From Bolinopsis microptera (lineage: Eukaryota; Ctenophora; Tentaculata; Lobata; Bolinopsidae), in the NCBI RefSeq assembly GCF_026151205.1, contig NC_087082.1:18259401-18323400 (forward strand): DNA of 64,000 bases, given 5' to 3'. Position 1 is the stretch's first letter. Each line of letters opens with the position of its first letter. Shown in pieces: positions 5,577-30,454 of this stretch. The notes beneath the pieces were generated by a model that had not been told where the DNA came from, made no database searches, and was given only the letters and a program-made list of their open reading frames with translations. Made by a program: the position numbers and the translations under genes.

Positions 5577-6578
5577 TTACACAGTGACCTGAGCCATGTC
5601 TGAATCTTTTTTAGAGTCCTGGTTCCCCCCACCTATAGAAGCAGCTCTTAGACCCCCCATGGGTAGGAAGTCATTCTTAGCTAGTCTCTTCTTACTCTTA
5701 TACCAACACGAGTAGAATGAATCGTAAGGTTTCTTACTGTTAGTCTCGGAGCTGGTCAGGACGGAGAGAAGGACCCGGGGAAGGAAGGACAGGATGATGA
5801 CCAGGACCAGGTTTAACCACGTGATGGAGTTATCAAAGCTCATCTTGAAGGTGTAGTGGGGGTCCTCGTTAAAGAACTGCCAGAGGAAGTCCAAGGTGCC
5901 GTAGCCGTAGAACCAGGACATCTCAATGATGAGCGTCATGATTATTGTGACGACAAGGAGGACGGTGATGTTGGGACACCGGACCAGGAAGTTGAGGTTC
6001 ATGACAGTCAGGGAGATAAAGGTGAGACCTGCTCCGAACTCCAGCTTACTGATGGTACTGTCCCAGCAGGACATGGCGTGGATTGAGAAGACTATGATAC
6101 CGTGGTATATAGCTTCCAGACACGCTGCAATCTGATTAGTGTGGTTAAACACTTCGTTAAGTCTGCCTGCTCGGTAACCCCTCGGGTCGTGGAGAATCTC
6201 CTCCTTGCTCCCTCCGTACTGATTGAGTAGAAAGGAGATAAAGGTGCCGGGTGTTGTCCAGAAGGTGTTGAACGTCACCACAAGGAACTCTTCTTGTGGG
6301 AAACTCCCGCTGAAGCCGTTGAAGAACTGATAGAAGAGAGATAGGGTAGCGTTAAACAGGTTCTTGTAGAAGAAGTAGAATATAAAGTCTGATATGCGGT
6401 GATAAGTCCACTGTCCGTGTACTAACACCAGTTTTTGAAGCATTCTGAACTGCTCGATAGCGAAGTCGGAGGCCATGACAGCTTGTGTTCCCTCGCGTCC
6501 TGCAATGCCAATTCCAATGTCAGCTTGTCGCAACATTCCGACATCGTTTGCGCCGTCGCCCACAGCCAGTGTCATCAC
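5577..6578 (-). CDS. ATP10: ATP10 exon 8: GDGANDV and C-terminal membrane domain
   Basis: 333 codons plus stop. It opens with VMTLAVGDGANDVGM, then GIGIAGREGTQAVMASDFAI and HGQWTYHRISDFIFYFFYKN, followed by hydrophobic segments that fit membrane helices 5-10, and ends in a short polar tail (SKKDSDMAQVTV). Acceptor TACATTTCAG|GTG. This is the last coding exon. Confidence 0.95.
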   Translation of the reverse strand: MMTLAVGDGANDVGMLRQADIGIGIAGREGTQAVMASDFAIEQFRMLQKLVLVHGQWTYHRISDFIFYFFYKNLFNATLSLFYQFFNGFSGSFPQEEFLVVTFNTFWTTPGTFISFLLNQYGGSKEEILHDPRGYRAGRLNEVFNHTNQIAACLEAIYHGIIVFSIHAMSCWDSTISKLEFGAGLTFISLTVMNLNFLVRCPNITVLLVVTIIMTLIIEMSWFYGYGTLDFLWQFFNEDPHYTFKMSFDNSITWLNLVLVIILSFLPRVLLSVLTSSETNSKKPYDSFYSCWYKSKKRLAKNDFLPMGGLRAASIGGGNQDSKKDSDMAQVTV

Positions 6579-9500
6579 CTGAAATGTAGATGTGTGAGCT
6601 GTTGCTTAATTATAGGAATTAACTTGACATTGTACGGGGGTTGTTCACTTGATCTCCACATCTACATAACATTAACTCCACATCTACATAACATTAACTA
6701 CACATCCACATCTACATAACATTAACTATACATCCACATCTACATAACATTAACTATACATCCACATCTACATAACATTAACTATACATCCACATCTACA
6801 TAACATTAACTATACATCCACATCTACATAACATTAACTATACATCCACATCTACATAACATTAACTATACATCCACATCTACATAACATTAACTGTACA
6901 TCCACATCTACATAACATTAACTATACATCCACATCTACATAACATTAACTATACATCCACATCTACATAACATTAACTATACATCCACATCTACATAAC
7001 ATTAACTCCACATCCACATCTACATAACATTAACTCCACATCCACATCTACATAACATTAACTGTACATCATTCAGGATCTGGGAACAATCTAGGCCGTT
7101 CAATACAGGACAATACAATAGGATCAGTATTCTACCAGGGGCCGGGGGGGGGGGGGGGGGGGGGGGGGGCGGGGGTAAATATACTGGTTATATTTAATTC
7201 ATTATACTATTATAGGGTAGTATACATTTGCAGAATTTGCTTTTCTACATTGGAAGACTGTAAGGGATGATATATGCAATATTCGTTACTCTACACTGCT
7301 CTAAATATCGCTGCAAACGAAACCTGATAACAAAGATTTTTGCCTAATCATGACTCAAAATAACTTACATTAATAGTTAGAGTTAAATCATTTTACAACA
7401 AAAACGGAGAGGATACATGGTAGTCGCTAGAGCATTCCGTGTCCTTGACACTCATCCGGGTAACGTTTATAATTATCAAAACCAACAATTACAATCACAA
7501 TCACAATTACAATTACAGTTACAACCACAACCACAACCACAACCACAACCACAACCACAACCACAACCACAACCACAACCACAACCACAACCACAACCAC
7601 AACCACAACCACAACCACAACCACAACCTACTCACCCCAAGTTCCTCTCTGATAAGGGACACGAGTGAAGCCTTCTGTAGCGGAGTAACTCGACAACAAA
7701 TCACAGTCTGACAAGTCTGGCATAAAGCCAGGAAGTCCGTCCTCAACTCGTAACTCATGAGGTGCTCAATTGCACAGCCGTTAATTATCAGCGCCTGTTT
7801 GTGTACCTGAGGGATGTCTTGTTAGATGTGGTTATTTACTGAATATAAGTAAAGTAATAATCGTCGATCGTCATGATAATTTACCTATAAATTGCAGTGT
7901 ATAATTTTACTTTATTTATTTATTTATAATTGATAATAATGTACTGATTCATGATTGGTCTGCTGAAAATATAGCTTAGCTATATCAAAGGTAGTCTGGA
8001 AGAATTGTTTCCTGGTTTTCAAGATTGGTCCAATATTGGTTAAAATATTCGTAACAGCTGGTTTTAGATTAAGCAGTAAGGTTAACTTATACCTTAACCA
8101 GAGTTAGAGTGAAACGTAGACCGCGACATGCACAGATCAAATTCAGATAACTTAAACTTACAATTACAAGTCAATATTTCCTCAGAAAGATAATGTAAGT
8201 TGGTACCGTAAGTTACAAGGATTACAGATATAATCTGCAGACTGGTTCCCAGTTGCTCACATCCCCCGGCGGTGACTTCAACTCTCGCAAATTAGTTTTA
8301 ATCACAAACTCAGCTACACTGCAAATTCTCTCACCAATATTCAGACACTTTTGGGCGGTTTACTACACTTTGAGGTATGTGGGTTATGTCCAGCAGAATA
8401 TTTCTAGTTATCTGACTGTAAATATTTAAAGGTGCTAATCAGTCCGCAATATTCTGGAGGGTCACATTTCTTAAGAGTTAGAGGACACGTTCATTTCCAA
8501 ACGGTCAAAAGCGAAACCACATCAAATTTCTCTGAGATCATGGTTTACACTTTACAGGTTAATGATTCTTATTTAAGATAACATTTTCCGTTTTCAGCTG
8601 CATACGTATCCCTACACTGAGTACCTACAAGTTGGTTTGCAGTAAAACTAATGTTGCCACGTATTACTATTTACATGAGTAGTGAGCTCTACTCCAATTT
8701 ATCGTGGAAACCCTCCTACAGCACTACTACTACCCGTAACCAGGAATCCCGGTCGAGCTCTGCCCGTAACGCTCCTGCCACAGCTACATTCCTCTAACAT
8801 GAATACCACCTTGCTGTTTTACGTTATGCCTTGAGAAATGTTAAAAGTGTGCAGACGGACAGCATACAACTTTGTGCAGATAAGATTCATATCAGTTTGT
8901 TTACAAAATATGTGGATGTGCAGTTAGAATTGCTCTTGTACAGGCAACAAGGTTACCAGGTTCAGGTTTTTACTACCCTGCCATTCAAATTTCTACATAG
9001 TTTTTGTGAGAAAACTGAGCAGTTCTAGACGGTGAGGGAGTGGTGAAGATGTGTGGTGGAGTCTAAGTTCTGTGTAATAGTTTGTAAGTTTCAGAAGAAT
9101 TGGTCCAGCTACTCGGGTGAAAGTAAGTAGTAACTCGGAAGAAGCATGCAGTCTACAGCGATGTCTACAATCACTAGTAGTAGCAGATTCAGGTTGTTTA
9201 GGTACAATAGTAAGATTGATGGTGGGGCTGAGGAATTTGTAGAATTCCTTTACCTGCCCTCAGACAATATCCGCAATGTTTAGGGTTTAACAGGATACTC
9301 AGTAAAGTTTTAAAATGTAACTCCCAAAACTCAAAAGTACTTGGATATTCGATGTACGGTAAGTTAAAGAACTCCTGATCCAACGAGTGCTGAAGGCAGG
9401 AGTTTTTTTTTTCAGGGGTTCTATAAATTCTTTATGGTACGGCACAAGACAACAGTCTTGAGAAAATTTTCCGACCTAAATTTTGAAATTTGGTGCATTT

Positions 9501-12500
9501 CAACCGTGTCAAAAAATTGCCAAACGACTGTAACTACTTCCGACACATACTGTACACAGTACACATATTGTACACAGTACACAGTGAGAGGGAGGGAAGG
9601 AAGGAGGGAGGGAAGGGGCAGTACATACTACACAAAGTGGGGAGGCACCACACAGTGGGCCCCACTGAGTGGGGGGGGGCGACACAGTGGGCCCCACTGA
9701 GTGGGGGGGCGACACAGTGGGCCCCACTGAGTGGGGGGAGGCACCACACAGTGGGGCCCATTGAGTGGGGGGAGGCACCACACAGTGGGCCCCACTGAGT
9801 GGGGAGAGGCACCACACAGTGAGCCCCACTGAGTGGGGGGAGGCACCACACAATGGGCCCCACTGAGTGGGGGGAGGCACCACACAGTGGGCCCCACTGA
9901 GTGGGGGGAGGCACTACACAGTGGGCCCCACTGAGTGGGGGGAGGCACTACACAGTGGGCCCCACTGAGTGGGGGGAGGCACTACACAGTGGGCCCCACT
10001 GAGTGGGGGGAGGCACCACACAGTGGGCCCCACTGAGTGGGGGGAGGCACTACACAGTGGGCCCCACTGAGTGGGGGGAGGCAGTACACAGCGCACTAAC
10101 CTGGCCTGTAGGTGTGTGAGCCATGACCTCGTTCAGCTTCTGCCGTGTAGCCTCCTTTGTGGAGGTCTTGAACTTGTGGAGGAGAGTGTCTCGTGAGTAC
10201 ACTTGGGAACTGTAGCCGATACTGACCGCTGTTTCTTGCTTGTCTCCCGTCAGTACCCATACTACTATTCCTGAGATTTAGTGTGTAAGCTGTTCTGGGC
10301 AACAATTAGTGTGTTATTAGTGCGTTAGTTCTGGGTTTTTAGGTGTGTGACTATAATAAATAGTTCTGGGTAACATTTTTCCTTTTATTCTCCGGAAACC
10401 TAAGGTTCTAAGGTTCCAGTAGATGGGCCGGTCCTTATATCTAAAACATTGTACCAATCAGTACTTAGTAAGTTTTAATATGGTAACTCATGTTGTTTGT
10501 TTCCGTATTATGGATGCTATGGTAACCAAATACTAGCTAACTACGCCACATAGAAGGGTATGCTAATTGGCAAACTTCTGGGCCGAAACATGGCAGATAT
10601 ACTGACAATTTAAGTTATACGGTTATATAAGTGGGATAACTATTTTTATTTAATCGTATCAGCCTGAATCCATGGCCCCACTTTACTATCTATTTATAGA
10701 GGCAGAGCCACGAAGTTCACAGTAATCGAGTGACCGAGCCCGAGCGGCATTAGTTACAAAGAAATCTGCAGAATTGAATATTGTATACTTCCAAGGGGCA
10801 CTCATACGCAAGTCACAGAAATAATTGCCTCGGTCACCGTTAGAGGACTCCAGGAATTAATTTAATCTTATTAAAATATGTAACTTATCGGAATATTTTA
10901 TTAATATAATGTCACGATAAAATACCATTGATACTATTGCTAGATTTATAAATAATTCAAAATTAGATCAAGGCCCCGGTCGTTTAGCCGCCAATCAGAG
11001 GAGAGTCTAGAGCATAATATTATGTGTACAGAATTCAAACTATTTTGATCAGCTCCTCTGTTCGCATGAAAAATTCATTTTGCGGTTTCGAAGAAAAGGC
11101 CCCGATTGTAAATAGATGCCAAGTGCCAACTACCAAGAATTTAAATTCAATCTTGTGCAAAATCTCGAGTGCGAAAGGTATGATTTAGTTATTTTCGAGA
11201 TGATCAAATCAATACTAGACCAACATAGAGCTCCCAGAAAGATCCACAATGTAAAGGAGTAAAAGTTAATTAAATGAGGTTATCGATGAGTGAGTAAAAC
11301 AAACAAATAATACACAACAACGAAATTATAGACACCAATTCGGCGCTCTAAACAGAATAAAAACATGTTTAAAAACAAATTATTAATAACAATTTACAGA
11401 AGGGTGTATAATGTTGGTTTTTACATAAGTTAGATCACGATTCAATGGCTTGAATATAATATCTTTTTTGTGGCATGTTTTTATTGTCCAAGCATTTTAC
11501 AAATAATAACATTTATTTATTAATTTATAAAAATATAATAAGACTCTGTTTACCTGCAGCTCTAAGAGAAGAGAGGACCTCTGGGACTCCTTCCTGAAGC
11601 TTGTCTTCAACACCAGTACCACCTGAAACAAAAAAATTAAAATTAGCAGATTTAAATATCCAGAAAAATTATCTGCTAGCTGTTATGATATTATAATAAT
11701 GCAGTTCGAAATCATCAATATTTAAGCAATCAAATTCTACAATATTTATAACTAAACGTTTGTCCCCTAAGTTTTTTTCCACTACTTTTTAAATAGATAT
11801 AGTTTGATTATCAGCGGTATCGCTCTCACACATTATCATTATTGAATTGAAGGTCTGGTTTACGTGGTGATGTGTTAGTTACTGGACCTTCCAGAACTTT
11901 TCAATAAAGTTACGTGTATAGTGTATGTAGACTATTATAGTGTAAAGTGTATATACACTAGTGAACGTATACGTATTACGCGACGTTCATTAGGTGAACG
12001 TGGGAGAGATCTCAGATCGAGGGTAAACGCCTAAATAGCATTTAAACTTGTTAGCTCATTGTTGGGAAAATAAAACTAAGGCTCTTAATCGAAGAAAGGG
12101 AGTCGCCTAATATAATATCTTATCCTTATTAGTAACTAATCATATCATAAATTCACTGTGTATAACTCCCTGTTAACTGTTTATCATCAGACAGTGATTT
12201 AGTCTTATATGAACCTATGCATGGTAAAGCACAGCAAGGCCGACCAAGACAAAGCTACTTGTCTATGTTACTGAAGGAAGTTGGGACAAACTCTAAAGAG
12301 GAACTGCGAACCCTGATGCGGGACAGGGATATATGGAGGGGGTTATCTGGCTTAGTTCCGACATAGTAGTAGTAGTTAACTGTTTGACTTGACAATCGCA
12401 TTAGCAGATTAGAGTCACATTAATTACAAATAAGTGTGGCTAAACTTTAGAGTCACATATTTACATTATATCATAATATGCCGAATGATAGGAAACTTTA

Positions 12501-15500: not shown

Positions 15501-18500
15501 AAATTGAGTTTATCGAGAGGAAGTGAAAAATCTCTGGTTCAAATTTGGATTTGAAGCCATGTTTAATTTTTTCTGTTGAGGTCAATTTTTTGCGCAGAAA
15601 GCGCTCGATTTTTGGGGAAAAAATTTAAGTTTGCTTTTAATTTTTAAGGTCCTGTCGGCACCTGAAATCGACGAAATCTGCAGGGGTGGTAACCACTAAC
15701 CACGCACCACTTGTTCAACCATAATTGAGAGGAGTTTTAAACGATTATCGATCACAATTATCTTGGGTTCTAGAACCGTATGGTAATATAAATCTACCAA
15801 ATGTGCTAAAATATAAACCTTGCTTATTGTACATGTTAACTATTTAACGCCCAAGAAACTCCCAATATGGTTAACTCACCTATCAAAACGAGATTTCTCT
15901 CAATAGAACTGCATGCTTTGCTAACAGCTTCAGCCCAAGAAACTCCCAATATGGTTAACTCACCTATCAAAACGAGATTTCTCTCAATAGAACTGCATGC
16001 TTTGCTAACAGCTTCAGCCCAAGAAACTCCCAATATGGTTAACTCACCTATCAAAACGAGATTTCTCTCAATAGAACTGCATGCTTTGCTAACAGCTTCA
16101 GGTTAACTCACCTATCAAAACGAGATTTCTCTCAATAGAACTGCATGCTTTGCTAACAGCTTCAGCCCAAGAAACTCCCAATATGGTTAACTCACCTATC
16201 AAAACGAGATTTCTCTCAATAGAACTGCATGCTTTGCTAACAGCTTCAGCCCAAGAAACTCCCAATATGGTTAACTCACCTATCAAAACGAGATTTCTCT
16301 CAATAGAACTGCATGCTTTGCTAACAGCTTCAGCCCAAGAAACTCCCAATATGGTTAACTGACCTATCAAAACGAGGTTTCTCTCAATAGAACTGCATGC
16401 TTTGCTAACAGCTTCATATGGTTAACTCACCTATCAAAACGAGATTTCTCTCAATAGAACTGCATGCTTTGCTAACAGCTTCAGCCCAAGAAACTCCCAA
16501 TATGGTTAACTGACCTATCAAAACGAGGTTTCTCTCAATAGAACTGCATGCTTTGCTAACAGCTTCATATGGTTAACTCACCTATCAAAACGAGGTTTCT
16601 CTCAATAGAACTGCATGCTTTGCTAACAGCTTCAGGTTAACTCACCTATCAAAACGAGATTTCTCTCAATAGAACTGCATGCTTTGCTAACAGCTTCAGC
16701 CCAAGAAACTCCCAATATGGTTAACTCACCTATCAAAACGAGATTTCTCTCAATAGAACTGCATGCTTTGCTAACAGCTTCAGCCCAAGAAACTCCCAAT
16801 ATGGTTAACTGACCTATCAAAACGAGGTTTCTCTCAATAGAACTGCATGCTTTGCTAACAGCTTCATATGGTTAACTCACCTATCAAAACGAGATTTCTC
16901 TCAATAGAACTGCATGCTTTGCTAACAGCTTCAGCCCAAGAAACTCCCAATATGGTTAACTGACCTATCAAAACGAGGTTTCTCTCAATAGAACTGCATG
17001 CTTTGCTAACAGCTTCATATGGTTAACTCACCTATCAAAAGGAGATTTCTCTCAATAGAACTGCATGCTTTGCTAACAGCTTCATATGGTTAACTCACCT
17101 ATCAAAACGAGGTTTCTCTCAATAGAACTGCATGCTTTGCTAACAGCTTCAGCTCAAGAAACTCCCAATATGGTTAACTCACCTATCAAAACGAGGTTTC
17201 TCTCAATAGAACTGCATGCTTTGCTAACAGCTTCAGGTTAACTCACCTATCAAAACGAGATTTCTCTCAATAGAACTGCATGCTTTGCTAACAGCTTCAG
17301 GTTAACTCACCTATCAAAACGAGATTTCTCTCAATAGAACTGCATGCTTTGCTAACAGCTTCAGGTTAACTCACCTATCAAAACGAGATTTCTCTCAATA
17401 GAACTGCATGCTTTGCTAACAGCTTCATATGGTTAACTCACCTATCAAAACGAGATTTCTCTCAATAGAACTGCATGCTTTGCTAAACTCCCAATATGGT
17501 TAACTCACCTATCAAAACGAGATTTCTCTCAATAGAACTGCATGCTTTGCTAACAGCTTCAGGTTAACTCACCTATCAAAACGAGATTTCTCTCAATAGA
17601 ACTGCATGCTTTGCTAACAGCTTCAGGTTAACTCACCTATCAAAACGAGATTTCTCTCAATAGAACTGCATGCTTTGCTAACAGCTTCATATGGTTAACT
17701 CACCTATCAAAACGAGATTTCTCTCAATAGAACTGCATGCTTTGCTAAACTCCCAATATGGTTAACTCACCTATCAAAACGAGATTTCTCTCAATAGAAC
17801 TGCATGCTTTGCTAACAGCTTCAGGTTAACTCACCTATCAAAACGAGATTTCTCTCAATAGAACTGCATGCTTTGCTAACAGCTTCATATGGTTAACTCA
17901 CCTATCAAAACGAGATTTCTCTCAATAGAACTGCATGCTTTGCTAACAGCTTCAGGTTAACTCACCTATCAAAACGAGATTTCTCTCAATAGAACTGCAT
18001 GCTTTGCTAACAGCTTCAGCTCGACCTTCCATCTTAACAGACGCCTGAAACAAAAGAGAGTTTATTATTTTCTCTGGAACATTCCAAAGTGGAGAGCCAG
18101 GTGTTGCCTAATTGTAGCAGGTAGTTCTGTGATTGCCTAATTGTGGTTATGTGACCTGAGCTCTGAAACAGACCTCACGTGTCCCTAGTGACCAGGTGTA
18201 CAAACATTGTAAGATTTTATTTGAATATGTATCAATCCTGAAACTGGTCTCCAGTTTCTTATGTTCCTGTAGGACCAACAATAAGACCGCCGTGTGTTCT
18301 GCACCTGTTACATTCATCATCGGCAACAAGGAACTTTGATCACTTTTATTACAGAACTATTACATTTATTAAACAGAGCTCTATCATTTTATCACAGTGT
18401 TACTTGTGGAGCTGAATTAACAGATAAGGAAAGCCTGCATGTAGAAAATATATAACATTTAATCACACTGGACAGAGAGGTGATTGCATGGCAATAAGAA

Positions 18501-21500
18501 GCAGTATATTATTGTAACAGTCCTTATCATCCAGTCCTCACTCCACAGTGGGCCTGGGAACTGTGTATCATAATTAATATTTCCACGGACAGGCTCTTTC
18601 AGCAAATATTGTAGGTAAACAGGTGCAATCCTATCACTTGTTTTTAGTGAGTAAAATCAACTGCAATAGGTAACAAGCAGTACATTGTGCGAGTGCATGA
18701 GTATGGGATAAACAAATAAATTCCAATATACTAGTCCTTGATATACTTGAATATTTCACAATACATACTAATCAAGATTTATCGTAACTTTCACGCGTGC
18801 GATTTGGATAATTTCAAATAACCTAATCAAGTAAAAGCATTAAAATAAAAGTTACTGTAAAGTAAAAGTAAAGTAGAACTAATCTTAATAGTGGTGTTAT
18901 TAAACTTTATTAAACTCACATGTCTGTAGCGGAGAATGAACTGCTCATACTCTGCCTGCTCCAGTATCTTGAACGCAAATGCTAGTGTCCTCAGTCCCTT
19001 TTTAGCAAACGAGTTGATCTGGCAAGGAGATTAGTTACTATCTAGTAGATTAGTTCATGGTTCTTTTTATCTAGCATCCTTTTATTTTGTTATCATTTGT
19101 TTTTATGAACAACTAATTATTTTTGTTAACGTCTCTTAGCCATGATCTACTAGTATAGTGTGAAAGTTCAACAATAGACGTCCTATAACCTGGCTATTGT
19201 AGCTGCTATACACTGTACAGGTGTTTGTAACTGTGTTAATATATAGTTATAAGTGTAGTGTAAACGTCTTGTATAGATTGTTATCATATACTGATACTGT
19301 GAATCATCATCCACTGTAGCACCGTGTATAACAATAGATCACGTGTAATAATAGATTTGGAAAACTCTCACTTACTAACCACGTGACCTTACTTCTAACG
19401 CTACCTTACTAACCACGTGACCTTACTTCTAACTCTACCTTACTAACCACGTGACCTTACTTCTAATTCTACCTTACTAACCACGTGACTTTACTTCTAA
19501 CTCTACCTTACTAACCACGTGACCTTACTTCTAACTCTACCTTACTAACCACGTGACTTTACTTCTAACTCTACCTTACTAACCACGTGACCTTACTTCT
19601 AACTCTACCTTACTAACCACGTGACCTTACTTCTAACTCTACCTTACTAACCATGTGACCTTACTTCAAACTCTACCTTACTAACCACGTGACCTTACTT
19701 CTAACTCTACCTTACTAACCACGTGACTTTACTTCTAACTCTACCTTACTAACCACGTGACCTTACTTCTAACTCTACCTTACTAACCACGTGACTTTAC
19801 TTCTAACTCTACCTTACTAACCAAGTGACCTTACTTCTAACTCTACCTAACTAACCACGTGACCTTACTTCAAACTCTACCTTACTAACCACGTGACCTT
19901 ACTTCTAACTCTACCTTACTAACCACGTGACCTTACTTCTAAATCTACCTTACTAACCACGTGACCTTACTTCTAACTCTACCTTACTAACCACGTGACC
20001 TTACTTCTACTCTACCTTACTAACCACGTGACTTTACTTCTAACTCTACCTTACTAACCACGTGACCCTACTTCTAACTCTACCTTACTAACCACGTGAC
20101 CTTACTTCTAACTCTACCTTACTAACCACGTGACCTTACATCTAACTCTACCTTACTAACCACGTGACCTTACTTCTAACTCTACCTTACTAACCACGTG
20201 ACTTTACTTCTAACTCTACCTTACTAACCACGTGACCTTACTTCTAACTCTACCTTACTAACCACGTGACCTTACTTCTAACTCTACCTTACTAACCACG
20301 TGACCTTACTTCTAACTCTACCTTACTAACCACGTGACCTTACTTCTAACTCTACCTCACTAACCACGTGACTTTACTTCTAACTCTACCTTACTAACCA
20401 CGTGACCTTACTTCTAACTCTACCTTACTAACCACGTGACCTTACTTCTAACTCTACCTTACTAACCACGTGACCTTACTTCTAACTCTACCTTACTAAC
20501 CACGTGACCTTTCTTCTAACTCTACCTTACTAACCACGTGACCTTACTTCTAACTCTACCTTACTAACCACGTGACCTTACTTCTAACTCTACCTTACTA
20601 ACCACGTGACTTTACTTCTAACTCTATCTTGCTAACCACGTGACCTTACTTCTAACTCTACCTTACTAACCACGTGACTTTACTTCTAACTCTACCTTAC
20701 TAACCAAGTGACCTTACTTCTAACTCTACCTTACTAACCACGTGACCTTACTTCTACTCTACCTTACTAACCACGTGACCTTACTTCTAACTCTCACTTA
20801 CTAACCACGTGACCTTACTTCTAACTCTACCTTACTAACCACGTGACCTTACTTCTACTCTACCTCACTAACCACGTGACTTTACTTCTAACTCTACCTT
20901 ACTAACCACGTGACCTTATTTCTAACTCGACCTTACTAACCACGTGACCTTACTTCTAACTCTACCTTACTAACCACGTGACCTTATTTCTAACTCGACC
21001 TTACTAACCATGTGACCTTATTTCTAACTCTACCTTACTAACCATGTGACCTTACTTCTAACTCTACCTTACTAACCACGTGACCTTATTTCTAACTCGA
21101 CCTTACTAACCATGTGACCTTATTTCTAACTCTACCTTACTAACCATGTGACCTTACTTCTAACTCTACCTTACTAACCACGTGACCTTACTTCTAACTC
21201 TACCTTATTAACCACGTGACTTTACTTCTAACTCTACCTTACTAACCACGTGACCTTACTTCTAACTCTACCTTACTAACCACGTGACCTTACTTCTAAC
21301 TCTACCTTACTAACCACGTGACCTTACATCTAACTCTACCATACTAAACACGTGACTTTACTTCTAACTCTACCTTACTAACCACGTGACTTTACTTCTA
21401 ACTCTACCTTACTAACCACGTGACTTTACTTCTAACTCTACCTTACTAACCACGTGACCTTACTTCTAACTCTACCTTACTAACCACGTGACTTTACTTC

Positions 21501-24500
21501 TAACTCTACCTTACTAACCACGTGACCTTACTTCTAACTCTACCTTACTAACCACGTGACCTTACTTCTAACTCGACCTTACTAACCATGTGACCTTACT
21601 TCTAACTCTACCTTACTAACCATGTGACCTTACTTCTAACTCTACCTTACTAACCACGTGACCTTACTTCTAACTCTACCTTACTAACCACGTGACTTTA
21701 CTTCTAACTCTACCTTACTAACCACGTGACCTTACTTCTAACTCTACCTTACTAACCACGTGACCTTACTTCTAACTCTACCTTACTAACCACGTGACCT
21801 TACATCTAACTCTACCATACTAACCACGTGACTTACTTCTAACTCTACCTTACTAACCACGTGACTTTACTTCTAACTCTACCTTACTAACCACGTGACT
21901 TTACTTCTAACTCTACCTTACTAACCACGTGACCTTACTTCTAACTCTACCTTACTAACCAGGCCACGTGACTTTACTTCTAACTCTACCTTACTAACCA
22001 CGTGACCTTACTTCTAACTCTACCTTACTAACCACGTGACCTTATTTCTAACTCTACCTTACTAACCATGTGACCTTACTTCTAACTCTACCTTACTAAC
22101 CACGTGACCTTACTTCTAACTCTACCTCACTAACCACGTGACTTTACTTCTAACTCTACCTTACTAACCACGTGACCTTACTTCTAACTCTACCTTACTA
22201 ACCACGTGACCTTACTTCTAACTCTACCTTACTAACCACGTGACCTTACTTCTAACTCTACCTTACTAACCACGTGACCTTACTTCTAACTCTACCTTAC
22301 TAACCACGTGACCTTACTTCTAACTCTACCTTACTAACCACGTGACTTTACTTCTAACTCTACCTTACTAACCACGTGACCTTACTTCTAACTCTACCTT
22401 ACTAACCACGTGACCTTACTTCTAACTCTACCTTACTAACCACGTGACCTTACTTCTAACTCTACCTTACTAACCACGTGACCTTACTTCTAACTCTACC
22501 TTACTAACCACGTGACCTTACTTCTAACTCTACCTTACTAACCACGTGACCTTACTTCTAACTCTACCTTACTAACCACGTGACCTTACTTCTAACTCTA
22601 CCTTACTAACCACGTGACCTTACTTCTAACTCTACCTTACTAACCACGTGACTTTACTTCTAACTCTACCTTACTAACCAGCACGTGACCTTACTTCTAA
22701 CTCTACCTTACTAACCACGTGACCTTACTTCTAACTCTACCTTACTAACCACGTGACCTTACTTCTAACTCTACCTTACTAACCACGTGACCTTACTTCT
22801 AACTCTACCTTACTAACCAGCACGTGACCTTACTTCTAACTCTACCTTACTAACCACGTGACCTTACTTCTAACTCTACCTTACTAACCACGTGACCTTA
22901 CTTCTAACTCTACCTTACTAACCACGTGACCTTACTTCTAACTCTACCTTACTAACCATGTGACCTTACTTCTAACTCTACCTTACTAACCACGTGACCT
23001 TACTTCTAACTCTACCTTACTAACCACGTGACTTTACTTCTAACTCTACCTTACTAACCAGGCCACGTGACTTTACTTCTAACTCTACCTTACTAACCAC
23101 GTGACCTTACTTCTAACTCTACCTTGCTAACCACGTGACCTTACTTCTAACTCTACCTTACTAACCACGTGACCTTACTTCTAACTCTACCTTACTAACC
23201 ATGTGACTTTATTTCTAACTCTACCTCACTAACCACGTGACCTTACTTCTAACTCTACCTTATTAACCACGTGACCTTACTTCTAACTCTACCTTACTAA
23301 CCACGTGACCTTACTTCTAACTCTACCTTACTAACCACGTGACCTTATTTCTAACTCTACCTTACTAACCACGTGACCTTACTTCTAACTCTACCTTACT
23401 AACCACGTGACCTTACTTCTAACTCTACCTTATTAAACACGTGACCTTACTTCTAACTCTACCTTACTAACCACGTGACCTTACTTCTAACTCTCACTTA
23501 CTAACCACGTGACCTTACTTCTAACTCTACCTTATTAACCAGGCCACGTGACTTTACTTCTAACTCTACCTTACTAACCAGGCCACGTGACCTTACTTCT
23601 AACTCTACCTTACTAACCACGTGACCTTACTTCTAACTCTACCTTATTAACCACGTGACCTTACTTCTAACTCTACCTTACTAACCACGTGACTTTACTT
23701 CTAACTCTACCTTACTAACCACGTGACCTTACTTCTAACTCTCACTTACTAACCACGTGACCTTACTTCTAACTCTACCTTACTAACCACGTGACCTTAC
23801 CTCTAACTCTACCTTACTAACCACGTGACCTTACTTCTAACTCTACCCTACTAACCACGTGACTTTACTTCTAACTCTACCTTACTAACCACGTGACCTT
23901 ACTTCTAACTCTACCTTACTAACCACGTGACTTTACTTCTAACTCTACCTTACTAACCACGTGACTTTACTTCTAACTCTACCTTACTAACCACGTGACT
24001 TTACTTCTAACTCTACCTTACTAACCACGTGACCTTACTTCTAACTCTACCTTACTAACCACGTGACTTTACTTCTAACTCTACCTTACTAACCACGTGA
24101 CCTTACTTCTAACTCTACCTTACTAACCACGTGACCTTACTTCTAACTCTACCTTACTAACCACGTGACCTTACTTCTAACTCTACCTTACTAACCACGT
24201 GACCTTACTTCTAACTCTACCTTACTAACTACGTGACCTTACTTCTAACTCTAGGTCTTACTAACCACGTGACCTTACTTCTAACTCTAGGTCTTACTAA
24301 CCACGTGACCTTACTTCTAACTCTACCTTACTAACCACGTGACCTTACTTCAATTCTAACTCTACCTTACTAACCACGTGACCTTACTTCTTACTCTACC
24401 TTACTAACCACGTGACTTTACTTCTAACTCTACCTTACTAACCACGTGACCTTACTTCTAACTCTACCTTACTAACCACGTGACCTTACTTCTAACTCTA

Positions 24501-27500
24501 CCTTACTAACCACGTGACCTTACTTCTAACTCTACCTTACTAACCACGTGACCTTACTTCTAACTCTACCTAACTAACCAAGTGACCTTACTTCTAACTC
24601 TACCTTACTAACCACGTGACCTTACTTCTAACTCTACCTTACTAACCACGTGACCTTACTTCTAACTCTACCTTACTAACCACGTGACTTTACTTCTAAC
24701 TCTACCTTACTAACCACGTGACCTTACTTCTAACTCTACCTTATTAACCACGTAACCTTACTTCTAACTCTACCTTACTAACCACGTGACCTTACTTCTA
24801 ACTCTACCTTATTAACCACGTGACCTTACTTCTAACTCTACCTTATTAACCACGTAACCTTACTTCTAACTCTACCTTACTAACCACGTGACCTTACTTC
24901 TAACTCTACCTTATTAACCACGTAACCTTACTTCTAACTCTACCTTATTAACCACGTAACCTTACTTTTAACTCTACCTTACTAACCACGTGACCTTACT
25001 TCTAACTCTACCTTATTAACCACGTAACCTTACTTCTAACTCTACCTTACTAACCACGTGACCTTACTTCTAACTCTACCTTACTAACCACGTGACTTTA
25101 CTTCTAACTCTACCTTACTAACCACGTGACCTTACTTCTAACTCTACCTTACTAACCACGTAACCTTACTTCTAACTCTACCTTACTAACCACGTGACCT
25201 TACTTCTAACTCTACCTTACTAACCACGTGACCTTACTTCTAACTCTACCTTACTAACCACGTAACCTTACTTCTAACTCTACCTTACTAACCACGTGAC
25301 CTTACTTCTAACTCTACCTTACTAACCACGTGACCTTACTTCTAACTCTACCTTATTAACCACGTAACCTTACTTCTAACTCTACCTTACTAACCACGTG
25401 ACCTTACTTCTAACTCTACCTTACTAACCACGTGACCTTACTTCTAACTCTACCTTACTAACCACGTGACCTTACTTCTAACTCTACCTTACTGACCACG
25501 TGACCTTACTTCTAACTCTACCTTACTAACCACGTGACCTTACTTCTAACTCTACCTTATTAACCACGTGACCTTACTTCTAACTCTACCTTACTAACCA
25601 CGTGACCTTACTTCTAACTCTACCTTACTAACCACGTGACCTTACTTCTAACTCTACCTTACTAACCACGTGACCTTACTTCTAACTCTACCTTACTAAC
25701 CACGTGACCTTACTTCTAACTCTACCTTACTAACCACGTGACCTTACTTCTAACTCTACCTTACTAACCACGTGACCTTACTTCTAACTCTACCTTACTA
25801 ACCACGTGACCTTACTTCTAACTCTACCTTACTAACCACGTGACCTTACTTCTAACTCTACCTTACTAACCACGTGACCTTACTTCTAACTATACCTTAC
25901 TAACCACGTGACCTTACTTCTAACTCTACCTTACTAACCACGTGACCTTACTTCTAACTCTCACTTACTAACCACGTGACCTTACTTCTAACTCTACCTT
26001 ATTAACCACGTGACCTTACTTCTAACTCTACCTTACTAACCACGTGACTTTACTTCTAACTCTACCTTACTAACCACGTGACCTTACTTCTAACTCTACC
26101 TTACTAACCACGTGACCTTACTTCTAACTTTACCAATTTCATCATCTCGCTGAGCTGGCCTAACTACTATTGTCTATAATTATTATGTAAAATCACACTT
26201 TCTAACCATATTGAATAGCAACTCATCCATATTGAACAGTTAATACTGATTATGAGAAAGTTGTACACGCTATTAGTGTCATGGTCACGTGACCTCGCAA
26301 TGAGTTACGGACTGGTACCATGCCTATACTCCTTTATAATACACCTCATACTGGGCTCATCACAAGCAATTAGTCAGTCCTCTAGAACATCCGCACAAAC
26401 AACTTATAATATCTCTCAACTAACTTACACTCAACTCTTAAAGTACATTCACTTCTACACTGTACCGGACACTGGACAGGATTATTTTGAAACTTACCTA
26501 CTACTGTACTAGTACTCAAACAATACATTCACTATACCAAATTGCTCTTACCAATACCAGGGTTGGAGGGGTACCCGGTACAATACATTCACTATACCAA
26601 CTTGCTCTTACCAATACCAGGGTTGGAGGGGTACAATACATTTACTATGAGACAAGATAAGTTTTATTTAGTTGTGTATTTTTCTTGAGTCTAATTTCAT
26701 GAAAACAATTTGTGCGTTGTTATATTAAAATGTAAACTCAGTCAGGATTATCGGGAAAGGATATAACCCTGGTAAATCGGTATTTTGATTGACACTAAAT
26801 AAACTGAATAATATTCACCACCTCCGTAGTCCGTACTAATAATAGCCTTAACAGGATTAAAATATACTAGTGAACAGAATAATATTCCTCTCCTTAACTA
26901 ATAAAACATAAAACAATTAATACACTAACATGATCAAGAGTAGCAGCTCTCAGCTCATCCTCCTCCTTGCTCTGCGAAGTCCGGAGTCTGCCGTACACTG
27001 CCGAATCAGCACCCTTCGTGTACATTACCATCTTCATGGTACGAGGATGAATCACAATAATACTCTGACACTTTCGGACCGAGTCAAAAGGAAGGGAGCA
27101 CAGTACCTGGCGTGGTTTAGGTGGTTAACTGTTGGGATTGTGAGTTAAAAGGAAGGGAGCACAGTACCTGGCGTGGTTTAGGTGGTTAACTGTTGGGATT
27201 GTGAGTTAAAAGGAAGGGAGCACAGTACCTGGTGTGGTTTAGGTGGTTAACTGTTGGGATTATGAGTTAAAAGGAAGGGAGCACAGTACCTGGTGTGGTT
27301 TAGGTGGTTAACTGTTGGGATTATGAGTTAAAAGGAAGGGAGCACAGTACCTGGCGTGGTTTAGGTGGTTAACTGTTGGGATTATGAGTTAAAAGGAAGG
27401 GAGCACAGTACCTGGTGTGGTTTAGGTGGTTAACTGTTGGGATTATGAGTTAAAAGGAAGGGAGCACAGTACCTGGTGTGGTTTAGGTGGTTAACTGTTG

Positions 27501-30454
27501 GGATTATGAGTTAAAAGGAAGGGAGCACAGTACCTGGTGTGGTTTAGGTGGTTAACTGTTGGGATTGTGAGTTAAAAGGAAGGGAGCACAGTACCTGGTG
27601 TGGTTTAGGTGGTTAACTGTTGGGATTATGAGTTAAAAGGAAGGGAGCACAGTACCTGGTGTGGTTTAGGTGGTTAACTGTTGGGATTGTGAGTTAAAAG
27701 GAAGGGAGCACAGTACCTGGCGTGGTTTAGGTGGTTAACTGTTGGGATTATGAGTTAAAAGGAAGGGAGCACAGTACCTGGTGTGGTTTAGGTGGTTAAC
27801 TGTTGGGATTATGAGTTAAAAGGAAGGGAGCACAGTACCTGGCGTGGTTTAGGTGGTTAACTGTTGGGATTATGAGTTAAAAGGAAGGGAGCACAGTACC
27901 TGGTGTGGTTTAGGTGGTTAACTGTTGGGATTATGAGTTAAAAGGAAGGGAGCACAGTACCTGGTGTGGTTTAGGTGGTTAACTGTTGGGATTATGAGTT
28001 AAAAGGAAGGGAGCACAGTACCTGGTGTGGTTTAGGTGGTTAACTGTTGGGATTGTGAGTTAAAAGGAAGGGAGCACAGTACCTGGTGTGGTTTAGGTGG
28101 TTAACTGTTGGGATTAGGAGTGAGCGAGAGTGGGTGTGGAGTGGGTGTGGAGTGGGTGTGGAGTGGGTGTGGAGTGGGTGTAGAGTGGGTGTGGAGTGGG
28201 TGTGGAGTGGGTGTGGAGTGGGTGTGGAGTGGGTGTGGAGTGGGTGTGGAGTGGGTGTGGAGTGGGTGTGGAGTGGGTGTGGAGTGGGTGTGGAGTGGGT
28301 GTGGAGTGGGTGTGGAGTGGGTGTGGAGTGGGTGTGGAGTGGGTGTGGAGTGGGTGTGGAGTGGGTGTGGAGTGGGTGTGGAGTGGGTGTGGAGTGGGTG
28401 TGGAGTGGGTGTGGAGTGAGCGAGAGTGGGTGTGGAGTGGGTGTGGAGTGGGTGTGGAGTGGGTGTGGAGTGGGTGTGGAGTGGGTGTGGAGTGGGTGTG
28501 GAGTGGGTGTGGAGTGGGTGTGGAGTGGGTGTCTGTGTTTTACTTCTAACTCTCACTCACTAACCACGTGAAGCGGTGGTTATGATGTTGCAAGTGAGAA
28601 TTACGTTTGGATGATGATCAAATGTCAAATGTCTGAGAATTTGACTTTTGTAATGGTATTATTGGTTTTGCTTACGTTAGTGAACATTTAATTGTGATCT
28701 GAAATGATCGCATATTGTACAATTAGGGATGATCGTTCAAATATTATGTAATATTTGAACGATCCCTAAACAAAGTTTTTCCATTTTGATGTACAATCTA
28801 TATTTCAAATAAAATGTTTAAAAAATAGCAGCAGCTGTTCTTACCTTGTATCTCATGATAACTTTCTGTTGTCTGACCACACAGCTCTCTGGAGTTCTCC
28901 TCAGAAGCACAAACCCGTACTCTCGCGCGGCGTTCACTAGTGACAACTCATCTGGAGACTCAGCTTCATACACAATACCGTTAAAGTCACGTGGGAGGTA
29001 CTGGGAGAAACTTGTGCCACGTCGACCCTCGGATGTCACCATGACAGTGTTGCAGATGGTCATGGCGATCACCACACTGTTGACATCTTCGTAGCCAGTT
29101 TTAGCTTCAAGTGCTTCTGCCAGAGCAGGATCAACAGGAGGTCTCTCGCCCCCATTGTCATCCATCTTCAAGTTATCTGAATTATTACCCGTCTTAGAGC
29201 TGCCAAACACTCTTCGACAAGCTGACATACATTTGAAAATCATCTTGTTTTCAGTCAAAGTTCCTGTTTTATCGGAGAAAACATACTGAACCTGCCCCAA
29301 ATCCTCTCCAATACTCATTGAGCGGCAGTTTATTGCCCTCTCACCAAAAAGATCGAGATCTTTCTGCAAGAGCCACATTTGCAGCAACTTGGTAATCTCG
29401 AGGAGGATATACAGAGACATTGGGATTAGCTGATTGAAAATAATGACAAACGTGAAGAAGGACAAGAAAGCAAGGTATGCTATCTGCTGAGTTTGGGGTA
29501 TCAAATAGGGTGCTACTTTGTACTCAGTCACAAAGTTATCTGTCATATTGATAACCCGGGTCATGTTATGGACCCTTGGATCTGAATAGGACCGCAGCCA
29601 CAGCCACTGTCCAAACGCTGATATGAAACATATCGAGATAAGGATTAAACACATGATCAAGATAGTGCCGTTCATCGTCCTTTCAATGTTGCTTATCTTG
29701 GTGCGACCCCCTTTATTGTTCTGCATGGCTTTTGTGTCATGACCAGCATACACTACCAGACCAACAACATAATCAGTGTTCTCAGCTCTGAACCTCTGAG
29801 GATAAAATTGTCTAAATTAAGAGTTCTATTTTCTTGTTCATGATGAAGATACCCGTTGAGTTCAGACAAATCATCGTTTGGCATATCAACACTTATATCT
29901 AATTCGAGATTTCGCAAACCGGTGGATTCCATGTTAGGAATACTAGCACAAGTCCTTTGTTTGAGATTGGTCTCACCATCCAGTGTGGAAGTGTCTGCAT
30001 AAGCAAAACCAAATTCATCAGATGTGTCGATAATGAGAATGTCAGTGGGAGCCTCTTCCTTACACACCACCTTGATGACATCTCCAACTTGTAATTCTTT
30101 CCACCTTTTCCGATAGTACTGCCCAGTTTTCTTATCATAGCACTGAGAGTCTCTACTGTTGATGCGATCATCTTGCTTGGCTCGTCGAATGTCCTCATAC
30201 AAGTCCTTGATAGCATCACTTAACAGTACTATACAAATAGGCATTATAGAAAAATATTTTCCGACTGCATTAAGCTGAGGGACCCAGTTCAATGCCAACA
30301 TGATTAAAAAGAACCAATTGGCCACTCTGTGAAACTGTTTGTATAAATTGAGAGGAACGAAATTCCACCATCTGTAGTTTGTTGTGCAGATACCGTTCTT
30401 TCTGAAGTCTGTATGTCCAAAAGCTTTTACATGTCTAGTTTTTTTGTTTTCCAT
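5577..30454 (-). CDS. ATP10: Class V P4-ATPase, ATP10-like phospholipid flippase (whole gene, 8 coding exons)
   Basis: P4-ATPases move phospholipids from the outer to the cytosolic leaflet using ATP, usually with a CDC50 partner. The joined exons give about 1125 residues: paired N-terminal membrane helices with the class V signature LNWVP (about 56), actuator loop LDGETNLK (about 158), PMSL in membrane helix 4 (about 345), phosphorylated aspartate in DKTGTLTE (about 395), ESPDE (about 499) and KGADS (about 568) in the nucleotide-binding domain, TGDKQE (about 686), GDGANDV (799-805), then six C-terminal membrane helices. FDSVRK, TGVEDKLQEGVP and VMTLAVGDGANDV point to ATP10 rather than ATP8 or ATP11. 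All junctions keep phase with GT-AG sites. It is shorter than vertebrate ATP10 proteins (about 1400-1500). One base is missing in the first block near 29780. The start at 30454 is the in-frame Met nearest the conserved part; 30475 is an alternative. Confidence 0.92.
6640..7072. repeat. 28-bp minisatellite, about 15 copies (ATP10 intron 7)
   Basis: Units of ACATCCACATCTACATAAC plus TAACTAT-type linker sequence. The array starts some 60-70 bases upstream of the exon 8 acceptor in the sense direction. Both ends carry variant units (TCCACATC). Confidence 0.95.
7144..7175. repeat. Poly-G tract (26 G, then C, then 5 G)
   Basis: An uninterrupted run of 26 G on the plus strand in ATP10 intron 7. Capable of G-quadruplex formation; exact length is likely unreliable in any assembly. 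Confidence 0.9.
7518..7629. repeat. (CCACAA)n hexamer array beside exon 7 donor
   Basis: About 18-19 hexamer copies abutting the exon 7 donor on the intron side. It creates long poly-QP, poly-HN, poly-V and poly-WL ORFs in several frames, none of them genes. Confidence 0.95.
7636..7806 (-). CDS. ATP10: ATP10 exon 7: P-domain CCRVTPLQK segment
   Basis: 57 codons, phase 0 at both ends, containing VICCRVTPLQKASLVSLI. Acceptor ATCCCTCAG|GTA, donor CTTGGG|GTGAGT. The hexamer array (TTGTGG on the sense strand) starts a few bases after the donor. Confidence 0.94.
7807..9635. other. ATP10 intron 6, unique part
   Basis: No exon with acceptable splice sites and no recognised element. A purine-rich stretch of GGGAGGGAAGGAAGG type lies near 9590-9615, before the 34-bp array. 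Confidence 0.5.
9638..10091. repeat. 34-bp GC-rich minisatellite, about 13 copies (ATP10 intron 6)
   Basis: Units contain CAGTGGGCCCCACTGAGTGG followed by GGGGAGGCACCACA. Each unit holds two overlapping inverted repeats (CAGTGGG-C-CCCACTG and CCCCAC-TGA-GTGGGG), so each can form alternative hairpins. Sequence beside the exon 6 donor (CTGTGTACTGCC) resembles the unit, suggesting the array grew from intron sequence next to that donor. Confidence 0.95.
10101..10270 (-). CDS. ATP10: ATP10 exon 6: VWVLTGDKQETA segment
   Basis: 170 bases, phase 1 in and phase 0 out. It encodes IVVWVLTGDKQETAVSIGYS and a charged stretch ending in HTPTGQ. TGDKQET is the P-domain hinge motif. Acceptor AATCTCAG|GA, donor GCCAG|GTTAGT. 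A 34-bp minisatellite begins within about 20 bases of the donor. Confidence 0.94.
10271..11553. other. ATP10 intron 5, no repeats
   Basis: AT-rich intron with no minisatellite and no recognised element. Confidence 0.5.
11554..11622 (-). CDS. ATP10: ATP10 exon 5: GTGVEDKLQEGVP segment
   Basis: 69 bases, phase 1 at both ends. It encodes GTGVEDKLQEGVPEVLSSL, the strongly conserved start of the second half of the P domain. Acceptor TTTGTTTCAG|GTGG, donor GCAG|GTAAAC. Confidence 0.95.
12217..12366 (+). pseudogene. LINE ORF C-terminal remnant
   Basis: An open frame of about 49 codons, MHGKAQQGRPRQSYLSMLLK then KEELRTLMRDRDIWRGL, ending in TAG followed by (TAG)n. The GRP...L...LM-x-DR-x-x-WRGL pattern is typical of the extreme C-terminus of non-LTR retrotransposon endonuclease/reverse transcriptase ORFs. 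It lies in ATP10 intron 4 on the opposite strand. A 5'-truncated dead copy. Confidence 0.65.
12775..12797. repeat. Poly-G tract, 23 G
   Basis: An uninterrupted run of 23 G in ATP10 intron 4 (poly-C in the transcript). Confidence 0.9.
12798..15296. other. ATP10 intron 4, unique part
   Basis: No gene recognised. A plus-strand ORF at 13845-14072 has no family resemblance that I know. A short (CA)n run is at 15238-15251. Confidence 0.5.
15297..15711. mobile_element. MITE-like element with inverted ends, about 415 bp
   Basis: The left end contains GGTGGTAACCACCATAGG then TGCAGATTTCGT. The right end contains ACGAAATCTGCA then GGGGTGGTAACCACTAACC, its inverted counterpart. The interior is noncoding. 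Exact ends and target duplication are unclear because the termini are built from short GTGGTAAC repeats. Confidence 0.6.
15848..17965 (-). repeat. Tandem array of ATP10 exon 4 plus its donor, about 29 extra copies
   Basis: Each unit on the sense strand holds the last 55 bases of exon 4 (GCTGAAGCTGTTAGCAAAGC through TTTTGATAG), then the donor GTGAGTTAACC (GTCAGTTAACC in a few), then a short linker. Units come in a long form of about 84 bp with the linker ATATTGGGAGTTTCTTGGG, and short forms of about 64-67 bp. Long units stay open in the exon's own frame, giving a 28-residue repeat containing AVSKACSSIERNLVLIGELT. Short units read into TGA just after the donor. The extra copies lack the pyrimidine-rich acceptor. 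Confidence 0.93.
17966..18044 (-). CDS. ATP10: ATP10 exon 4: SSIERNLVLIG segment
   Basis: 79 bases, phase 0 in and phase 1 out. It starts ASVKMEGRAEAVSKACSS and ends in IERNLVLIG, the segment just before the LLGATAVEDKLQ motif of P4-ATPases. Acceptor TTTGTTTCAG|GCG, donor ATAG|GTGAGT. From GCTGAAGCTG to the donor it is nearly identical to about 29 tandem copies downstream. Only this copy has a pyrimidine-rich acceptor and the unique first eight codons. Confidence 0.9.
18045..18919. other. ATP10 intron 3
   Basis: Ordinary AT-rich intron; no repeat or gene recognised. Confidence 0.5.
18920..19018 (-). CDS. ATP10: ATP10 exon 3
   Basis: 33 codons, phase 0 at both ends: INSFAKKGLRTLAFAFKIL and onward, matching the conserved FA-x-x-GLRTL segment of P4-ATPases. 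Acceptor TTGCCAG|ATC, donor CAT|GTGAGT. Confidence 0.93.
19367..26133. repeat. Very large 34-bp minisatellite, about 200 copies (ATP10 intron 2)
   Basis: About 6.8 kb of units built on TTACTAACCACGTGACCTTA followed by CTTCTAACTCTACC. Nearly every unit carries the E-box CACGTG. Variants (GACTTTAC, GTAACC, CATGTG, TATTAACC, and an inserted GG or GGCC) cluster in blocks, for example CACGTAACC units around 24750-25370, suggesting block-wise duplication. On the sense strand each unit contains GTAAGGT-like donor look-alikes. One stray copy lies at 28540-28570. Confidence 0.97.
26134..26929. other. ATP10 intron 2, 5' part, with a short duplication
   Basis: Mostly unremarkable. A segment of about 55 bp containing ACAATACATTCACTATACCA and ACCAGGGTTGGAGGGGTAC occurs twice at 26518-26640. 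No gene recognised. Confidence 0.6.
26930..27106 (-). CDS. ATP10: ATP10 exon 2: nucleotide-binding domain
   Basis: 59 codons, phase 0 at both ends. It begins VLCSLPFDSVRK and contains VMYTKGADSAV, the nucleotide-binding KGAD motif. Acceptor CGCCAG|GTACTG, donor CAT|GTTAGT. The acceptor and the first 21 exon bases are also the core of the adjacent 61-bp minisatellite; this copy is the one continuous with unique coding sequence. Confidence 0.92.
27107..28112 (-). repeat. 61-bp minisatellite carrying the exon 2 acceptor, about 16 extra copies
   Basis: Each 61-bp unit, read on the sense strand, contains the acceptor context CACACCAG|GTACTGTGCT or CACGCCAG|GTACTGTGCT plus the first 21 bases of ATP10 exon 2, then diverges to AACTCATAATCCCAACAG. 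The lowest-coordinate copy merges into the real exon 2. Entering the transcript at any upstream copy would hit a TAA within the unit. Confidence 0.95.
28124..28532. repeat. 12-bp minisatellite, (GTGTGGAGTGGG)n
   Basis: About 33 copies, interrupted twice by GAGTGAGCGAGAGTGGG. It lies in ATP10 intron 1 directly beyond the 61-bp array. Long VWSGCGVGVE and HSTPTPHP ORFs here are repeat artefacts. Confidence 0.95.
28723..28769. repeat. Hairpin in ATP10 intron 1
   Basis: TTAGGGATGATCGTTCAAAT pairs with ATTTGAACGATCCCTAA (one small bulge) around a short AT loop. It sits about 75 bases downstream of the exon 1 donor. Confidence 0.75.
28845..30454 (-). CDS. ATP10: ATP10 exon 1: N-terminal 537 codons
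   Basis: One uninterrupted block encodes membrane helices 1-4, the actuator domain, the phosphorylation loop and half of the nucleotide-binding domain. It ends at a strong donor, AAG|GTAAGA. The block reads in two frames: the first runs through ILRGSELR, the second resumes at NTDYVVGLVVYAGHD, and they join correctly if one A is restored near 29780. The lack of introns contrasts with the small exons that follow. An untranslated 5' exon is possible, since AATCTCAG just upstream of the ATG resembles an acceptor. Confidence 0.9.
29776..29784 (-). other. ATP10: Single-base frame break in ATP10 exon 1
   Basis: The sense strand reads CTGAGAACACTGAT where the family sequence LRNT(D/E) expects one more A after AGA. 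Both flanking frames are well conserved and the total exon length then fits the downstream phase. It is either an assembly or sequencing deletion or a real inactivating change; there is no splice signal to bridge it. Confidence 0.85.

Follow-up and report, generated by a model that had tools for sequence, protein, structure and literature searches.

Tandem arrays of splice junctions in a P4-ATPase gene, and probably in other genes, of the ctenophore Bolinopsis microptera

The spliceosome's choice among identical neighboring sites is a long-standing question, approached in the past with artificially duplicated sites, and classic minigenes with duplicated splice sites were used to test scanning and proximity rules. 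In human genes of segmental duplications, variable internal tandem repeats (30 bp and 4 copies on average) occur at exon-intron boundaries and change splicing, and the sections of that study drawn on here report 27 cases of intron modification among recent paralogues (De Grassi and Ciccarelli 2009, PMC2812944). Dual-specific splice sites are described, in the relevant part of another study, for UBC and other tandem-repeat genes, the UBC units being coding and included in variable number (Duan et al. 2024, PMC10809524). Introns may also be gained by tandem duplication of exon segments, as outlined in parts of the literature (e.g. PMC4974935, PMC2891723), and introners, as characterized in the portion of the source used here, are repeated intronic elements with splice sites, scattered over many genes (Gozashti et al. 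2022, PMC9860276).

The window analyzed here, a stretch of 64,000 nucleotides, carries a P4-ATPase (flippase) gene on its minus strand, from about 30454 to 5580, whose exons and two junction arrays are listed in Table 1. Exons Eb to Eh form one open frame when joined in silico. A 690-residue query compared with solved structures matched phospholipid-transporting ATPases, the best being entry 6k7g ('Phospholipid-transporting ATPase', E=1.2e-128), which we take to be ATP8A1. The label ATP10, given to the gene in an earlier note on this DNA, is a tentative one: the protein is a P4-ATPase, with 6k7g as its closest solved relative. The Pfam family PF05176 (ATP-synthase assembly ATP10) was rejected for the array gene as describing the wrong gene, and a search with it gave zero matches, though its controls gave zero matches likewise. 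An apparent one-base frame shift is present at window positions ~29780-29795, between RGSEL of the N-terminal exon part and NTDYVVG, and may reflect a genuine lesion or an error of the assembly.

Table 1. Exons and junction arrays of the P4-ATPase gene (window coordinates)
Feature	Position	Strand	Basis
Exon part Eb (NTDYVVGLVVYAG...MRYK), contains DKTGT	28845..29780	-	joined frame, protein match
Acceptor-bearing minisatellite, 17 x 61 bp, each CAG|GTACTGTGCTCCC; last = real exon start	27081..28121	-	repeat finding, joined frame
Exon Ec (VLCSLPFDSVRKCQSIIV...); the acceptor array derives from its start	26930..27106	-	joined frame
Exon Ed (INSFAKKGLRTLAFAFKILEQ...), upstream neighbor of Ee	18920..19018	-	joined frame
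Coding exon Ee (...SSIERNLVLIG, 79 nt), from which the array unit derives; its donor GTGAGT immediately follows 17966	17966..18044	-	joined frame, protein match
Donor-bearing minisatellite, 30 copies (first = real exon end), 64/67/84-bp steps	15848..18021	-	repeat finding, unit matches, joined frame
Exon Ef (GTGVEDKLQEGVPEVLSSLRAAG), acceptor of the donor-array intron	11554..11622	-	joined frame
Exon Eg (IVVWVLTGDKQETAVSIGY...)	10101..10270	-	joined frame
Exon Eh (VHKQALIINGCAIEHL...)	7636..7806	-	joined frame
Last coding exon Ei (VMTLAVGDGANDVGM...)	5580..6578	-	start: joined frame; end: open frame only

The end of exon Ee and its donor are amplified in tandem, as the earlier note had proposed (about 30-fold): 30 core copies were found on the minus strand, a number that, like all array copy numbers given here, derives from one assembly. 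Each copy consists of the last 53-55 bases of Ee, which agrees with the 55 proposed, and a donor. The donor sequence given for all of them, GTGAGT, is present in 26 of the 30 copies, the remaining four having GTCAGT. Over 51 exon bases, and with the exon counted as a copy, 20 of the 30 are identical to the exon, eight have 1 difference and two have 5. All 26 AGGTGAGT octamers on the minus strand of the window lie inside the array and the plus strand has none, which excludes a chance origin. Having head-to-tail units of high identity in the size range of ~10-100 bp, the array is a minisatellite. Eight unit variants can be told apart in it, and long forms prevail toward the intron, shortened ones toward the exon; the copy beside unique intron sequence has the full 84-bp form. 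The intron whose start it occupies measures 6343 bp (17965 down to 11623), and a single acceptor serves this intron, so the picture of about 30 donors facing one acceptor was correct.

A mirror image of this arrangement, absent from the earlier note, precedes exon Ec of the same gene. A unit of this second array joins an acceptor to the 26 bases that open Ec, and in the upstream copies one of these bases differs. Searched against the 264.65-Mb genome, the donor unit gave 30 matches and the acceptor unit 17, all of them at the P4-ATPase locus among the matches listed, and the units were rejected as introners on this ground. Tandemly duplicated (alternative) exons were rejected as well, since the exon's acceptor is not repeated in the donor-array units.

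Each of the 30 donors was joined to the next exons in silico. The frame stays open with donor 1, and all 29 later donors yield the same stop, ...LIGELT*; the prediction that skipping of the first donor gives a premature stop therefore holds in a stronger form than was claimed. The account of the individual units stands for the most part. The long units are open in the exon frame (84-bp steps, 28 residues), and the first unit after the real exon is of the short type, the first step being 64 bp. Short units were said to run into TGA right after the donor, as do the 64-bp steps and eight of the ten 67-bp steps, and units 4 and 8 (67-bp steps) depart from this by reaching TAG a few codons later (by eye). 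All 16 upstream acceptors of the Ec array lead to a stop within the first extra unit. At both junctions the exon-proximal site alone is thus productive in silico, since every alternative choice (29 of 29 donors and 16 of 16 acceptors) ends in a stop.

A paralogous P4-ATPase place on contig C5 matches across the Ee junction in one open frame, with 44% identity, so the intron between Ee and Ef is absent from this paralogue. Birth of the intron by tandem exon duplication is disfavored and was rejected, because the intron start, GTGAGTTAA (GTGAGTTAACC), is not a copy of the downstream exon start, GTGGTACTGG. Three other repeats are present in the gene: in the Ec-Ed intron a minisatellite whose 34-bp unit occurs about 198 times (window 19363-26134), a 34-bp array that begins about 10 nt past the end of Eg (9639-10091) and a GGTTGT hexamer array that begins about 8 nt past the end of Eh (7521-7628).

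Arrays at other genes were looked for in a sample of 20 pieces of 10 kb, namely 10 myosin matches, 9 dynein matches and the one listed P4-ATPase paralogue place. Tandem Repeats Finder (TRF) arrays of period 8 or more and 2.5 copies or more numbered 74, only one of which, in a myosin gene (L009), has a homology-backed junction. This donor array has 22 units of 40 bp with the exon end ...ALHYIVHYYAQ followed by GTAGGAGAG (Pfam E 5e-11, over the cut-off), and its breakpoints have 5 nt in common, CCTTC (by eye). In another piece (L006, 4838-5060) a repeat resembles a 3-copy acceptor array, at an exon without a homologue to prove it. A further myosin piece (L001, 3513-3986) contains two adjacent matches to one stretch of the myosin head, within a listed open frame of 1218 residues, and these are possibly a duplicated exon.

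The position of the sampled arrays relative to exons was compared with random re-placement. When the 39 intronic arrays were re-placed within their own gaps between exon matches, 8 were within 10 nt of an exon-match edge versus 2.4 expected (p = 0.001); at other distances the values were p = 0.075 (0 nt), 0.003 (15), 0.014 (25) and 0.024 (40), all with exon edges that are approximate because they are taken from profile-match edges, some of the matches having stops, and with unrecognized exons ignored. Re-placement within whole pieces gave 10 of 74 arrays within 15 nt versus 3.1 expected (p = 0.001), a signal that weakened to p = 0.03-0.11 when arrays with units of at least 25 bp were taken.

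Donor motifs are enriched in tandem arrays across the genome. Taken as a triplet whose gaps measure 26-56, AGGTRAGT has 3363 matches (1557+1806) versus 193 (80+113) for the reversed, non-complemented control, triplet matches not being equal to loci. Single AGGTRAGT sites, those in arrays included, number 19244 versus 15618 reversed; as this is a 1.23-fold excess, the excess of the donor motif sits in arrays. A point-mutated donor (AGCTRAGT, G+1 to C) has 898 triplets and its reversal 12, so that by matches the donor excess over the mutated form is 3.7-fold only. In the 200-kb gene sample, 3 of 13 donor octamers were inside TRF arrays and 0 of 15 reversed ones. Counted as distinct arrays among the matches listed, 100 donor matches make up 5 arrays in C1:1-2.51 Mb, versus 6 arrays in 39.7 Mb for the reversed and 8 in 48.7 Mb for the mutated pattern. 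The difference in density has a binomial P of 1.3e-4, or 1.3e-3 with the neighboring sushi arrays merged, and it is a larger donor excess than the match count gives, on a basis of 5 arrays at one chromosome end. The donor matches listed are all on the plus strand; the listing seems to give one strand first, and if it does the comparison is conservative, as the donor density then covers one strand.

Nine donor-triplet arrays were fetched, all 5 from the C1 list and all 4 from the complete CAGGTAAGTA list. A coding junction is probable in five of them. Two are donor arrays at sushi-like exons (L021 and L022, Pfam E 0.043 and 0.0038, below the curated cut-off), and a third is a donor array at a dynein exon (L023), which was matched in a PDB comparison (E about 1e-8) and for which a Pfam search with the peptide found no dynein match. 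The other two are acceptor arrays, at a copine exon (L025, Pfam E 1.5e-4, below the curated cut-off) and at a TAF2 exon (L027, Pfam E 1.6e-13, over the cut-off). Adjoining the dynein array, the heavy-chain exon itself has an in-frame tandem duplication of 171 bp, or 57 residues (L023, 849-1175). The TAF2 array (892-1261) is made of 37-bp units, TTATTTCAG|GTAAGT..., that end at the exon, and each unit looks like a complete mini-intron with a dual-specific site. Three of the nine are without a coding junction, though near a probable one. One of these lies just upstream of a methyltransferase-like frame (L024, E 0.012), with the motif antisense. The other two start about 10 and 20 nt beyond the donor of a CH-domain exon (L028) and of an exon for the collagen IV C-terminal domain (L029), with the donor excluded and the motif antisense. 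On the exon strand they read as repeated ACTTACCTG inside the introns just after the exon (L028, 1040-1569; L029, 1011-1567), which is presumably the sequence of the 5' end of U1 snRNA. The ninth array (L026) was assigned to neither class. Besides C11, junction arrays are present on contigs C1, C2 and C8.

The reversed and mutated patterns together had 14 distinct arrays among the matches listed, eight of which were fetched (L030-L037). They include a dynein acceptor array (L032, Pfam E 0.0012, below the curated cut-off) and an array that runs across the end of a receptor-like frame (L033); contact with gene features is therefore not a property of donor-motif arrays alone. In the receptor-like case, a 53-bp array (574-898), the unit repeats the final codons of that frame together with its stop codon. 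One control is array throughout, with no flank to judge (L037), another is without a clear pattern array by TRF (L030), and in the remaining four of the eight no recognizable junction was found. Acceptor-motif triplets (TTTYCAG) number 1837 versus 402 reversed, a ratio that we do not lean on because the arrays listed include several short simple repeats, and two of those fetched (L038, L040) resemble coding-sequence repeats. The first of these two has a 41-bp array of 8 copies (540-873) that is open in all three frames and lies between seemingly coding stretches in different frames. Three more acceptor-pattern arrays (L039, L041, L042) were placed in no class.

We consider it likely that these minisatellites arose by tandem duplication across splice junctions and are tolerated through normal use of the exon-proximal site, the P4-ATPase arrays being one case of several to many. 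The founder of the donor array would have been one 84-bp tandem duplication spanning the exon-intron junction, followed by growth and by loss of small pieces (the 67- and 64-bp units) through slippage or unequal exchange. A founder duplication with later deletions and re-copying fits the full 84-bp copy at the unique intron and the shortened exon side; the founder breakpoints have 2 nt in common, GC (by eye). Repeated blocks within the order of the units were not significantly in excess of shuffles (242/2000). The spliceosome would normally take the exon-proximal site, that is the first donor or, in the second array, the last acceptor. We propose that the array survives because the mRNA is then unchanged, occasional use of another copy leading to a premature stop. 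The intact frame and the recurrence at other exons suggest near-neutrality, and the mirror acceptor array, like the arrays of other genes, has the appearance of a mutational product of a general kind.

Could the copies instead take part in splicing? The first donor might be joined to the AG of a later unit and re-spliced, the intron being removed stepwise with the same final mRNA. Such recursive joining is conceivable because AG|GT stands in every unit in the same context, in 30 of 30 donor-array and 17 of 17 acceptor-array units. Dual-specific sites are moreover enriched in human tandem-repeat genes, according to the portion of the study cited for UBC (PMC10809524), and in the TAF2 array a good acceptor is fused with a good donor every 37 bp. 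In the donor units of the P4-ATPase gene, however, the tract that precedes AG (CTCGTTTTGATAG) makes a weak acceptor (by eye), and steps of 37-84 nt are short, so that on the sequence we regard this reading as unlikely. Somewhat less probable still is a regulated switch for productive splicing, a possibility raised in the earlier note. Skipping of the first donor would here direct the transcript to decay, with the productive share tuned by a bound factor or by copy number. The early stops from the 29 later donors and the 16 upstream acceptors are what it predicts, but the GTRAGT donor sequence by itself often brings a stop right behind it, and one of the sushi-like arrays (L021) lacks the property, the frame staying open for about ten units when its first donor is skipped. 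Selection of the arrays as many U1-binding sites, which would define the exon or shield the intron from early polyadenylation, could account for the enrichment of donor motifs in arrays and for the U1-like 10-11-bp repeats near exons; we think it very improbable, as these repeats (10 bp in L029, 11 bp in L028) are antisense to the neighboring exon and acceptor arrays exist as well. Long arrays are difficult to assemble at their true copy number, but that one junction copy was multiplied by the assembler is scarcely credible given the eight unit variants, mostly long on the intron side and short on the exon side, and the similar arrays on C1, C2, C8 and C11.

Duplication across junctions with exon-proximal site use, the reading that we prefer, has a bolder form, which we put forward tentatively and with somewhat more doubt than belief. 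Splice junctions would be preferred seeds of amplification, hundreds of donors and many acceptors would now be arrays with as many as tens of identical competing sites, and for the genes to stay functional the choice of the exon-proximal site would have to be near-errorless or the copies removed recursively. Rough totals for donor arrays are ~170, at ~20 of the 3363 triplets per array, and up to ~1000 when the density over the initial 2.5 Mb of C1 is extrapolated.

Splice junctions are indicated as starting places of minisatellites, and junction arrays would mislead the prediction of genes and the mapping of splices from short reads. The genome seems to offer natural versions of the duplicated-site experiment, in which conserved genes carry as many as tens of donors or acceptors that share an identical context. 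Because these arrays of identical sites are natural, ordinary long-read RNA could answer the question of site choice directly. In the literature searched, we found no report of a genome with splice junctions amplified on this scale, nor of splice-junction minisatellites in ctenophores.

In comparison with classic minigenes, several identical donors or acceptors compete in both, and here they are natural and in tens of copies. Introners, as far as the part of the source used here describes them, likewise have repeated intronic sequence with splice sites, whereas the donor unit occurs here at one locus only, among the matches listed (PMC9860276). Tandem duplication of exon sequence is shared with intron gain as outlined in the sections drawn on (PMC4974935, PMC2891723). 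UBC, in the portion of the paper considered, has in common with the P4-ATPase arrays the tandem units each with AG|GT (PMC10809524); the copies here, however, are intronic and run into a stop if included, and their AG is a candidate acceptor only. Minisatellite units across exon-intron boundaries are known in human, and according to the sections of that study used here the copies there are few, whereas they reach about 44 here, in several unrelated genes and with a genome-wide enrichment of the donor motif (PMC2812944).
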